Shown piece by piece: positions 15,911 through 49,788 of a stretch of DNA of 64,000 bases. Every line of letters starts with the position of its first letter. Within the stretch, counting starts at the first letter, position 1. Made by a program: the position numbers and the translations under genes. The DNA is from Sporichthya brevicatena (GTDB taxonomy: Bacteria; Actinomycetota; Actinomycetes; Sporichthyales; Sporichthyaceae). Under the pieces are notes generated by a model. It saw only the letters and a list, made by a program, of their open reading frames with translations. It did not search any database and had not been told where the DNA came from. The DNA lies in NCBI RefSeq assembly GCF_039525035.1, contig NZ_BAAAHE010000038.1:1-64000 (forward strand), in the 5' to 3' direction.

Positions 15911-15966
15911 GTCAAAAAAGGGTGACACCCCTTACTGCCGAGTAAGGGGTGTCACCCTTTTTTGAC
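15911..15966. repeat. Giant perfect hairpin, palindrome family copy 1 (likely terminator)
   Basis: Two perfect 26-base arms (15911-15936 and 15941-15966) around the loop GCCG. The arms run GTCA, then six A, then GGGTGACACCCCTTACT. The same core recurs at 33508 and in tandem at 37656. A run of T at 15958-15963 on the + strand and, by symmetry, on the - strand fits a bidirectional terminator closing the long + strand unit. A shortened echo (AAGGGGTGTCACCCCC) follows at 15972-15987. Confidence 0.75.
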
Positions 15967-33507: not shown

Positions 33508-33565
33508 TGTCACAAAAGGGTGACACCCCTTACTGCGCAGTAAGGGGTGTCACCCTTTTGTGACA
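33508..33565. repeat. Giant perfect palindrome, family copy 2 (likely terminator)
   Basis: Two perfect 29-base arms (33508-33536 and 33537-33565) with no spacer. They contain TGTCACAAAA, then GGGTGACACCCCTTACTGC and its complement. The core equals that of the copy at 15911. It separates the + strand ArsR gene from the - strand USP gene and has T runs on both strands, fitting bidirectional termination. Confidence 0.75.
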
Positions 33566-43789: not shown

Positions 43790-45177
43790 ATGGGCACACC
43801 CGAGCTGATCGGAACGCGCTCCTACCCGGTGCAGGTCAGCGGGCGCCGTGACCCGGAGCTGTCGCGCTGGCTCTGGCTGGTCAAGTGGCTGCTCGTCCTA
43901 CCGCACCTCGTCGTCCTGGCGTTTCTCTGGCTGCGTTCGTCCTCCTCACCGCGGTGGCCGGCGTCGCCATTCTTCTGACGGGCCGTTATCCGGCCCCCAT
44001 CTTCGAGTTCAACGTCGGCGTTCTGCGCTGGACGTGGCGGGTCCAGCACTACTCCTACGGTGCCCTCGGCACCGATCGGTACCCGCCGTTCACCCTCGCC
44101 GACGTCCCGGACTACCCCGCGCGGCTGGAGGTCGAGCGCCCGGAGCGGCTGTCCCGCGGGCTGGTCCTGGTGAAGTGGTGGCTGCTGGCCATCCCGCACT
44201 ACCTGATCGTGGCGCTGCTGATCGGCGGCATCGGGCCCGTGCTCGACGGCGACGGGCCGCTGCAGTGGTTCTTCACCGGACTGGTCGGCGTCCTGGTCCT
44301 GGCCGCGGGCATCGTGCTGCTGTTCACCGGCCGGTACCCCGAGCCCCTGTACGACCTGGCCGTCGGCATGGACCGGTGGGCGCTGCGGGTCGCCGCCTAC
44401 GCCGGCCTGATGACCGACACGTACCCGCCCTTCCGCCTCGACACCGGCGGCACCGAGCCCGGCGCCGCGGAAGCCGCGGTCGCCGTGGAGCCGGCCCCGG
44501 CCCGGGCGGGCTGGACCGCGCGCCGGGTCACGGCGGTCGTCGCCGGAGCGGTGCTCGTCCTGACCGGCAGTGGCCTCGCTGCCGCCGGCGGCGCAATGCT
44601 GTGGGCGGACCGGACCCAGCGGACCGACGGCCTGCTGATGACGCCGAGCCGGCACTTCGACACCACGGCGTCCGCGTTGGTCAGTGAGGAGATCGACCTG
44701 CCCGACGTCGACCTCGGGCCCTTCGGTTCGGGATCGTTGCTCGGCACCGTGCGCATCGAGGTCCAGTCCGCGAGCGGGCAGCCGATCTTCGTCGGGATCG
44801 CCGGGGACGACGACGTCGAGGCCTACCTGCAGGGCGTCGCTCACGCCACCGTCGAGGACCTCTCGCACGGTGCGACGCCGGTCGTCACGGCCGGGGATCG
44901 CGTCCCTGAGAGCCCGGCGTCGGCGGGGATCTGGGTCGCGTCCGCGGCCGGTGCGGCTCCGCAGGCCGTGACGTGGGACTCCGAGGGCGGCGACTGGTCG
45001 ATCGTGGTGATGCCGCCGGACGGCAACGCCGGGTTCGGGGTCACGGTGCGCGCCGGCGCCGAGGTCCCGGCCCTGACGTGGATCGCCGGCGGTGCCCTCG
45101 GGGCCGGTGGGGCTCTGCTCGTCGCGGGCCTGGTCCTGATGACCGTCCCGATCGTCCGCGCCGCCCACCCGGCCTGA
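43790..45177 (+). pseudogene. DUF4389 membrane protein, broken by a one-base deletion
   Basis: The gene begins at ATG 43790 after GAGAGGAG. It reads a normal DUF4389 start (VKWLLVLPHLVVLAFLWL), then shifts frame at about 43931-43936. The remaining about 410 residues continue in the +1 frame (AFVLLTAVAG, then TGRYPAPIFEFNVGVLRW) with a second DUF4389 repeat and a large Ala/Gly-rich C-terminal part ending in a membrane helix. Restoring one G in CTG-CGTTC would rejoin the family sequence (WLAFVLL). Downstream codon use is intact, so the lesion is recent or a sequence error. It shares a DosR-like box with cydA. Confidence 0.75.
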
Positions 45178-45185
45178 GCGCGAAA

Positions 45186-45216
45186 GGCGCCGCCGTCCCC
45201 GGTGGACGGCGGCGCC
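45186..45216. terminator. Perfect 13-bp GC hairpin
   Basis: GGCGCCGCCGTCC (45186-45198) and GGACGGCGGCGCC (45204-45216) with loop CCGGT, 8 bases after the DUF4389 stop. On the - strand the stem is followed by TTT, so it could also end a - strand transcript starting near the orphan box at 45350. Confidence 0.6.
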
Positions 45217-45349
45217 GGCCGGTCGGGCCCGGTGAAAGCCGACCGGCGGCCCGGGCGAGACAGGCGGCGCTGCGGTGCCGCGGCCCGGTGCGTCTCCAGT
45301 CTGGCGGTCGGCGGGCGGCGAAACAGGTGCAGATCGGACCGAATCGGGA

Positions 45350-45363
45350 TGGACCAAAGTCCC
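45350..45363. promoter_or_regulatory. Orphan DosR-like box TGGACCAAAGTCCC
   Basis: This is the closest match in the window to the palindromic mycobacterial form GGGAC-N4-GTCCC (one mismatch). It lies in a 222-base gap between convergent genes (45177 end and 45400 end), so it has no protein gene to serve. With the hairpin at 45186 it could bound a - strand RNA of about 130-150 bases. The rest of the gap shows no ORF worth calling. Confidence 0.5.
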
Positions 45364-45399: not shown

Positions 45400-45780
45400 T
45401 CACCGGGCCGGGACGATGAGGACCGGGGTGGTGCCGCGGCGGACGCAGGCCTCGCTGACCGAGCCGAGGAGCGTGGTGGCGAGCCCGCCCTTCCCGTGAC
45501 TGCCGACGACGAGCAGGTCGGCGTCGCGGGCGGCGTCGAGCAGGACGTCGGCGGGCTTGCCGGCGACGACGCGGGTCGTGATCCCCGGCGCAGCGCCCGG
45601 GTGGTGCGCGAGGACGTCCTGCAGGTCGCGGTGCAGCTGCTCCGTCGCCGCCTCCTCGGACGGGTCGGCGCAGACCACCTCCAGCCGCGCGCCGGTGCCC
45701 GCCGCGTGCCGGACCGCCCAGTCCAGGGCGCGGCGGCCGCCGGCCGAGCCGTCCACGCCGACCACCACGAGCCGCTCCAT
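45400..45780 (-). CDS. Universal stress protein (short)
   Basis: A 126-residue single-domain USP, near the minimum length of the family. It starts MERLVVVGVDGSAGG and keeps the complete ATP motif VVGSHGKGGLATTLLGSVS, ending almost immediately after the last strand (VLIVPAR). GGAGGACGCC precedes ATG 45780. It lies 23 bases after the phosphotransferase-AAA gene in the same direction, so the two are probably co-transcribed under the DosR-like box at 47361. In mycobacteria a USP (Rv2005c) also neighbours the Rv2004c kinase, the same pairing. Confidence 0.87.
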   Translation of the reverse strand: MERLVVVGVDGSAGGRRALDWAVRHAAGTGARLEVVCADPSEEAATEQLHRDLQDVLAHHPGAAPGITTRVVAGKPADVLLDAARDADLLVVGSHGKGGLATTLLGSVSEACVRRGTTPVLIVPAR

Positions 45781-47410: not shown

Positions 47411-49132
47411 GTGACCGGTCCCGAACCGTCCTCCGAGCTGCCGCAGGTGCCGCTGCTCGAATTCGACCAACTGCTCTCGCAGCTGGTCGACCGCGCTCAG
47501 GAGCTGATGGGCACACAGAGTCGCCTTCGGGGGCTGCTGGCGGCGAACACGGCCATCATCGGCAACCTCGCGCTGCCCGTCGTGCTGCGGCGGATCGTCG
47601 AGGTCGCGTGTGAGCTGGTCAACGCCCGGTACGGCGCGCTCGGCGTCCTGGCCCCGGCCGGCGGGCTGGAGCAGTTCATCCACGTCGGCATGGACGACGA
47701 CGCGGTCGAGCGCATCGGTCACCTCCCCGCGGGCAAGGGACTGCTCGGTGCGCTGATCGACGAGCCGCAGCCGATTCGCCTGCAGAACATCGGGGACGAT
47801 CCGCGGTCGGTCGGCTTCCCCGCGAACCACCCCCCGATGGCGAGCTTCCTCGGGGTCCCGATCCGCGTCCGTGACGAGGTGTTCGGCAACCTCTACCTCT
47901 CCGAGTCCGCCTCCGGTCGGTTCTCGGAGGACGACGAACGCGTCGTCGTCGCCCTGGCCGCCACCGCCGGTGTCGTCATCGAGAACGCGCGCCTGTTCGA
48001 GCAGGCCAAGCGGCGGCAGGACTGGCTCCGTGCCTCCATGCGGATCCAGCAGCGGCTGATGGCGCCGGGCGGGGAGAACCCGCTGGAGCTGATCGCCCGT
48101 CAGGCACTGACGCTCGCGGAGGCGGACCTCGTCTCCGTCGTGCTCCCGTCCTCCGATCCGGACGTGCTGCAGGTCGCGGTGGCCGCGGGCGAGCGGGGCG
48201 CGGAGATCGTCGGGTACGCGTACCCGCGCGCGGACTCGATCGTGGGGCTCGCGCTGGAGACCGGGCGCCCGGTGATGCTCGGCGACGCCGCGACCGAGGA
48301 ACGGCACGTCGTGCACCTGACGCGCGTCCTCGAGGTCGGGGCCACGATGGTCGTCCCGCTCATCGGCACGGTGGGCACTCGCGGGGCGTTGACCGTGGCG
48401 CGCCAGCGCGGGCGGCGGCGCTTCGACGACGCGGATCTCGACATGGCGCTCGCGTTCGCGAACCACGCCGCGGTCGCGCTGGAGCTGGCCGACGCGCGCG
48501 TGGACCAGGAGCGCGTACTCCTGCTGGAGGACCGCGACCGGATCGCCCGCGACCTGCACGACCACGTGATTCAGCGGCTCTTCGCCGCCGGCATGACGCT
48601 GCAGGGCGCAGCCGGGCTCCGGGAGAGCGAGCGCGCGGCGCGGATCGACCGCGTCGTGACGGACATCGACGACGTCATCGCGCAGATCCGAACCTCGATC
48701 TTCGGTCTGCGCGGCACGTCGGGGCAGAAGCCGGCGACGCCGCGGGCGCGGATCCTCGAGGTCGCCGCGGAGACCACCGCGGTGCTCGGGTTCGAACCGC
48801 GGGTCCGGTTCGGCGGGCCCGTCGACACGATGGTCGGGCCGGAGATGGCGGACGACCTCGTCGCCGTCGCACGCGAGGCGTTGAGCAACGCCGCCCGGCA
48901 CGCCCAGGCGACCGCGGTGGAGCTCTCGCTGACGGTCACGGCCGAGGCGCTCACGCTGGAGGTCGTGGACGACGGTGTCGGGCTCGGGGAGTCCGCGCGC
49001 CGCAGCGGCCTGGAGAACATGCGCGTCCGCGCCGAGCAGTACGGCGGCACCCTGGAGGTCGGGCCCGCCCCGGCCGAGCACACGACACCGAACCGCGAAG
49101 GGACACACCTGCGATGGACGATTCCGCTGTGA
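47411..49132 (+). CDS. devS: Hypoxia/redox sensor histidine kinase, DevS/DosT-like
   Basis: A 573-residue soluble sensor kinase with GAF-A (about 55-205), GAF-B (about 225-365), a HisKA_3 dimerisation domain with phospho-acceptor His 383 (RDLHDHVIQRLF), and an HATPase domain (EALSNAARHA; DDGVGLG). GAF-A contains FPANHPPMASFLGVP, whose His 140 aligns with the haem-ligand His 149 of M. tuberculosis DevS, so gas or redox sensing by haem is likely. Length matches DosT (573). GTG 47411 has no strong ribosome-binding site, but no better in-frame start exists. It overlaps the regulator gene by 19 bases. Confidence 0.9.
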   Translation: MTGPEPSSELPQVPLLEFDQLLSQLVDRAQELMGTQSRLRGLLAANTAIIGNLALPVVLRRIVEVACELVNARYGALGVLAPAGGLEQFIHVGMDDDAVERIGHLPAGKGLLGALIDEPQPIRLQNIGDDPRSVGFPANHPPMASFLGVPIRVRDEVFGNLYLSESASGRFSEDDERVVVALAATAGVVIENARLFEQAKRRQDWLRASMRIQQRLMAPGGENPLELIARQALTLAEADLVSVVLPSSDPDVLQVAVAAGERGAEIVGYAYPRADSIVGLALETGRPVMLGDAATEERHVVHLTRVLEVGATMVVPLIGTVGTRGALTVARQRGRRRFDDADLDMALAFANHAAVALELADARVDQERVLLLEDRDRIARDLHDHVIQRLFAAGMTLQGAAGLRESERAARIDRVVTDIDDVIAQIRTSIFGLRGTSGQKPATPRARILEVAAETTAVLGFEPRVRFGGPVDTMVGPEMADDLVAVAREALSNAARHAQATAVELSLTVTAEALTLEVVDDGVGLGESARRSGLENMRVRAEQYGGTLEVGPAPAEHTTPNREGTHLRWTIPL

Positions 49133-49788
49133 ACCCGGAGGCGGACGAGCAGATCACCGTGTTCCTGCTCGACGACCACGAGATCGTGCGGCGCGGGATC
49201 GCCGACCTGCTCGAGGCCGCGCCCGACATCTCGGTCGTCGGCGACGCCGGCACCGCGGCGCAGGCGCTGCCGCGCATCAAGGCACTTGAGCCGAAGGTCG
49301 CCGTCCTCGACGGGCGACTCCCGGACGGCAGCGGCATCGACGTCTGCCGTGACGTGCGGTCCGCCGTCCCCGGGACGCGCTGCATCATCCTCACCTCCTA
49401 CGACGACGACGACGCGATCCTCGGCGCCGTCATGGCCGGCGCCGCGGGCTACCTGCTCAAGGAGATCAAGGGCAGCAACCTCGTCGACGCGATCCGGCAG
49501 GTCGCCGCGGGCCACTCACTGCTCGACCCGGCTGTGACCGAACGGGTCCTCACCCGCCTCCGCGAGGGCGACAAGGTCGACCCCCGCTGGGAAGCCCTGA
49601 CGGCCCGCGAGCGCGAGATCCTCGACCTCGTCACCGAGGGCATGACGAACCGTGAGATCGGCGAACGCCTCTTCCTCGCCGAGAAGACCGTCAAGAACTA
49701 CGTCTCCGTCATGCTCACCAAGCTCGGCATGGAGCGCCGCGCCCAGGCCGCGGTCTTCGGCGCCGAGATGCGCAAGAAGGAGCAGTAA
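49114..49788 (+). CDS. devR: LuxR/NarL-family response regulator, DevR/DosR-like
   Basis: A 224-residue regulator. The receiver domain (about 14-130) has the acidic pocket DDHE and phospho-Asp in VAVLDGRLPDG. A long linker and a C-terminal LuxR-type HTH follow (about 155-218; EKTVKNYVSVMLTKLGMERR). That recognition segment and the end RRAQAAVF match DevR almost residue for residue, so it should recognise DosR-type boxes, of which several occur in this window. ATG 49114 overlaps the sensor stop by 19 bases; GTG 49129 is an alternative. It is followed by tandem palindromes. Confidence 0.92.
   Translation: MDDSAVNPEADEQITVFLLDDHEIVRRGIADLLEAAPDISVVGDAGTAAQALPRIKALEPKVAVLDGRLPDGSGIDVCRDVRSAVPGTRCIILTSYDDDDAILGAVMAGAAGYLLKEIKGSNLVDAIRQVAAGHSLLDPAVTERVLTRLREGDKVDPRWEALTAREREILDLVTEGMTNREIGERLFLAEKTVKNYVSVMLTKLGMERRAQAAVFGAEMRKKEQ

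Follow-up and report, generated by a model that had tools for sequence, protein, structure and literature searches.

A DosR-type site between convergent genes of an actinomycete and a possible lineage-specific small RNA

The 222-bp gap that separates a DUF4389 membrane protein gene from a convergent universal stress protein (USP) gene is tentatively explained, from its sequence, as a DosR-family promoter for a lineage-specific minus-strand small RNA. We regard this as the best single explanation and as the best reading available, a little short of an even chance, and it ranks above a site that is inert or left over, above chance and above other uses. The window, meaning the whole 64,000-nt stretch of DNA that was analysed, comes from an actinomycete genome of 5.2 Mb in 89 contigs (G000), in which it is contig C38, and has a GC content of 72%. 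Genes were called with a home-made codon-usage finder, which suits coding or intergenic status and not exact starts, and genome-wide counts rest on pattern searches together with fetched stretches. The relevant features of the window are as follows.

43790..45177, plus strand: DUF4389 membrane protein gene, the stop codon ending at 45177
45183..45291, minus strand: candidate small RNA of ~109 nt, predicted, containing no ATG, GTG or TTG
45186..45216 (45186-45198/45204-45216), no strand assigned: perfect 13-bp hairpin whose loop has 5 nt, located 8 nt beyond the stop codon of DUF4389
45298..45303, minus strand: putative -10-like element CAGACT (CAGACTGGAG), 33 bp from the centre of box 2
45326..45341, minus strand: putative box 2, a weak OsdR/DosR-like site (GGTGCAGATCGGACCG on the plus strand), its centre 23 bp from that of box 1
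45350..45363, minus strand: box 1, DosR-type palindrome TGGACCAAAGTCCC (minus strand GGGACTTTGGTCCA), an exact match to the core of a mostly intergenic motif
45400..45780, minus strand: USP gene (PF00582, E 3e-25), stop at 45400
47411..49132, plus strand: DosS/DosT-like GAF-GAF histidine kinase, its first GAF domain nearest to DevS/DosT sensors
49129..49788, plus strand: response regulator, DosR/DevR ortholog (closest solved structure M. tuberculosis DevR, PDB 3c3w, E 7e-71)

The first-pass annotation had placed the most palindromic DosR-like box of the window between two convergent genes, and both points were borne out: the DUF4389 gene (plus) and the USP gene (minus) converge on the gap, and box 1 is the best DosR-type site of the window. 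It agrees with the mycobacterial core GGGACTWWAGTCCC at 12/14 positions and is the sole site of that quality in 64 kb, where 0.2 would be expected per window under a Markov-1 model. On the minus strand (GGGACTTTGGTCCAT) it matches 11 of the 12 fixed positions of the strong M. smegmatis DevR consensus GGGACTTNNGNCCCT (PMC6448022), again the best score in the window, and in the intergenic DNA of the window 0.0009 exact copies of its core 12-mer, GGACTTTGGTCC, are expected. By our own estimate, positions 45350-45363 are likely to be a DosR-family binding site.

The recognition helix of the DosR ortholog, FLAEKTVKNYVS, is the same as in DevR; a paralog with 76% identity lies at C7:336162, and the recognition helices of the DosR paralogs compared are nearly identical. 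The cluster also holds USPs and cydABCD, and with these the neighbourhood looks like a DosR-type hypoxia cluster; further genes there read as phosphoketolase and acetate kinase, a reading made without a family search. Box type, DosR/DosS homologs and a USP-rich neighbourhood are shared with OsdR/DevR regulon promoters (Streptomyces AGGGCCGATCGGCCCT; mycobacterial GGGACTTNNGNCCC; PMC5069765), although the known sites precede genes, whereas box 1 sits in a convergent gap. In the congener G001, a gene between USP and kinase-like genes (L211, 2694-3716) resembles DosR-regulon nitroreductases by eye; it is absent from G000.

Across the genome, four exact copies of GGACTTTGGTCC were found versus 0.36 expected overall, and for exact intergenic copies about 0.09 would be expected genome-wide by chance, with 4 seen. 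When one mismatch at most was allowed, 9/11 sites were intergenic in G000 (binomial 5e-8) and 13/17 in G001 (2e-10), the background being an intergenic share of sequence of ~10%. Exact or near-exact copies are kept between species at the promoters of a FliA-like sigma/FlgN pair, of pilin genes and of a response-regulator operon. Because its sites are mostly intergenic and conserved across species, we take the 12-mer to be a real regulatory motif, of which orphan box 1 is one exact copy. A loose DosR pattern showed no enrichment genome-wide (95 matches vs 80 in the control), and loose matching is therefore to be avoided.

Promoter copies of GGACTTTGGTCC, exact or near-exact, lie in G000 at C7:296847, C49:13242, C68:19223 and C55:21499 (L200, L202, L205 and L204, respectively), and in the congeners at L212-L214, L260 and L264 (G001) and at L216 and L217 (G002). 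Besides the FliA-like sigma/FlgN pair, pilins and the response-regulator operon, apparently secreted proteins have promoters bearing it, and the set possibly represents a DosR-like motility/surface regulon. At L212 of G001, a DosR-like response regulator follows the gene for a 227-aa protein; in the G000 counterpart (L205, 3318-4694) the response regulator is missing and the promoter box is retained. A box of the same class also occupies a convergent gap in G001 (L256, 1855-2384; C1:854131), where an unannotated 60-aa ORF may lie downstream of it, and neither of the convergent-gap sites L256 and L262 of that genome has a comparable hairpin.

Footprinting, that is, comparison of G000 with G001, brought out strong conservation at two USP promoters of the same cluster, those preceding 34281 and 51709. 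Both follow one plan: box 1, box 2 with its centre 23 bp away, ~34 bp, and a -10-like NANNCT. The conserved response-regulator operon promoter carries an identical 23-bp box pair, followed by AACGCT. On the minus strand of the gap, the putative box 2, GGTGCAGATCGGACCG, agrees with the OsdR consensus AGGGCCGATCGGCCCT, which is that of Streptomyces (PMC5069765), at 11/16 positions by hand count, and CAGACT is similar to CAACCTGGAG and GACGCTGGGAG, its counterparts at USP34281 and USP51709, respectively. Box 2 gave p 5e-4 in an anchored template test and p 0.002-0.13 with position weight matrices (PWM), the -10-like element a best p of ~0.05 (0.1-0.7 when other training sets were used), and the two jointly p 5.5e-4 (matrix, long template). 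With short modules trained on the USP promoters, the orphan site scored p 0.004 and the conserved operon promoter itself 0.009-0.03; the orphan value rose to 0.1 when the USP34281 pair was left out of training, and was 0.27 when the modules were trained on the operon promoter alone. These tests are post hoc, and because the pattern had been noticed before it was tested, we grade the apparent minus-strand promoter match at the orphan box as suggestive. The minus orientation is favoured by box 2 and the -10-like element, and a search of the plus strand for a second box downstream of box 1 found none (p 0.3-0.85).

A perfect 13-bp hairpin followed by TTT on the minus strand had initially been taken as a sign of a small RNA. 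Both elements are present at 45186-45216, with no T run on the plus strand, and the stem itself is the kind of terminator that ordinarily follows a stop codon in this genome, here that of the plus-strand gene. Perfect stems of at least 13 bp are expected 0.05 times per window, and four were found, all at gene 3' ends; with stems of at least 12 bp, all five in the window sit at the 3' end of a gene: they follow a stop codon by 2-16 nt or (once) overlap it, four of them separate convergent genes, and T runs are absent from all. Since all of these stems mark gene 3' ends, we read the DUF4389 hairpin as an ordinary terminator, and long hairpins free of T runs past stop codons as the terminator style of this genome. 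Elsewhere in the window, perfect hairpins of 27 and 26 bp stand right after stop codons at 33508-33565 and 15911-15966, likewise without T runs. The DUF4389 stem has the features of an actinobacterial 3'-end terminator, a strong GC stem directly past the stop (8 nt), and not the U run that follows a classical intrinsic terminator, the TTT being on the minus strand only and the terminator scan finding none here. The TTT was rejected as the mark of a minus-strand terminator, given that comparable hairpins in the window lack T runs. The hairpin could nonetheless stop a minus-strand RNA too. Scans of the gap for sigma-70 promoters and T-rich terminators returned no match.

A DosR-family promoter in the gap would point left, along the minus strand. 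Phosphorylated DosR, or a close paralog, would bind the strong box 1 and, cooperatively, the weak box 2, which, centred at about -42/-43, would overlap the -35 element; DevR promoters usually have their sites close together, the nearest of them lying on -35 (PMC3029386). RNA polymerase would then start near 45291 and produce a short, untranslated, highly structured RNA of ~109 nt that would end at the terminator hairpin common to the convergent DUF4389 gene, and hypoxic induction and a function for the RNA would belong to the same prediction. The first-pass annotation had envisaged a minus-strand RNA of ~150 bases with a 5' end near 45340. The minus orientation is favoured, no ORF was found in the predicted RNA, and the spacing of box 1, box 2 and the -10-like element would put the start nearer 45291 and thus shorten the transcript. 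As folded in silico, the RNA predicted at 45183-45291 forms three stem-loops (MFE -75.6, z -3.45), to which the terminator stem contributes most, and it combines the stable fold of a DrrS-like small RNA with the absence of any start codon or ORF. An Rfam scan returned one irrelevant match, far below the gathering score, and no described RNA family. Some 3'-region small RNAs, such as MicL, own a promoter and share a gene's terminator. The candidate is similar: it would begin inside the 3' region of a gene or past it, and stop at a terminator used by another transcript. It differs in that this terminator is that of the convergent gene and that the RNA is a predicted one.

Conservation in relatives, proposed at the outset as a check, was found for the genes and not for the elements between them. 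The convergent pair is present in G001 (DUF4389 81% identical, USP 73-83%), the sole comparable relative, where the gap measures 33 bp and contains neither box nor hairpin, so that the Dev-box is not conserved at the orthologous locus of this one genome. Relative to G001, the DUF4389 gene (43790-45177) has an apparent 1-nt frameshift near 43934, which is either real or a draft-assembly error. A DUF4389 match was sought in the congener G002 and not found; a DNA search of the gap in 40 genomes returned, apart from itself and GC-rich noise, only the G001 sequence at the USP end, and among the loci examined around DUF4389 genes, in class-wide genomes and in GTDB, no other such convergent DUF4389/USP pair was recognised. 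The difference may reflect a gain in G000 or a loss in G001.

Box 1 might instead be a genuine DosR-family site with no dedicated product, either inert or the relic of a lost gene's promoter, beside a hairpin that is the DUF4389 terminator; we consider this a serious if doubtful possibility. Genes come and go at the locus, G001 having an extra gene behind the USP gene and more before the DUF4389 gene that G000 does not, the gap is lineage-specific, the hairpin falls into the class found just past stop codons, and inert response-regulator sites are known (PMC10294691). However, no gene remnant was detectable in the gap, and the box has a promoter-like extension downstream of it on the minus strand. 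Mere chance, a random palindrome next to an ordinary terminator, seems unlikely: in its favour, the box is not kept in G001, the loose motif is unenriched, and a fraction of one exact 12-mer is expected genome-wide and a smaller one in intergenic DNA, but the expectation for the intergenic DNA of the window is far lower still, the box lies inside the cluster that encodes DosR, and the extension is found on one strand.

The two remaining explanations change the regulator of the box or its direction. That it serves a DosR-like paralog controlling flagella, pili and surface proteins rather than the hypoxia regulon, and may drive the same RNA or nothing, fits the conservation of the exact 12-mer in G001 and G002 at the promoters named above, the different sequence of the USP sites, which read GGGACCTTCGGCCC, and the existence of the paralog on C7; yet recognition helices this similar mean that specificities may overlap, and the box is located in the hypoxia cluster, and we hold this to be improbable. 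Least probable of all, and by our estimate very improbable, is a plus-strand promoter yielding an RNA antisense to the USP gene, for which the palindromic box and a weak -10-like hexamer (p 0.03-0.2) could be cited, but whose second box is missing downstream.

Most of what is known of DosR-dependent small RNAs comes from M. tuberculosis. The candidate resembles one of them, DrrS/MTS1338, in being intergenic, structured and of similar length (~108 nt in DrrS), close to DosR sites and within a DosR-rich region (PMC5360333, PMC3207917), although the likeness concerns setting, size and structure rather than sequence, and the candidate is a predicted RNA. The DosR box of DrrS proved dispensable in reporters (PMC5360333), and a box alone is therefore no proof of an RNA. 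Should the small-RNA reading be true, a second, unrelated DosR-dependent small RNA would exist in another actinomycete, which would suggest that such RNAs are a recurrent, fast-evolving output of the oxygen switch. In a bolder version, which strikes us as quite unlikely, promoter, RNA and a borrowed terminator form a free-standing and lineage-specific unit driven by DosR, whose box is of the flagellar/pilin type and which could link low-oxygen sensing to motility or surface genes. The more general by-product of the analysis is that promoters of flagellar, pilin and surface-protein genes carry a DosR-like box; its conservation at the flagellar and pilin promoters would tie the DosR family to motility, a connection that is directly testable.
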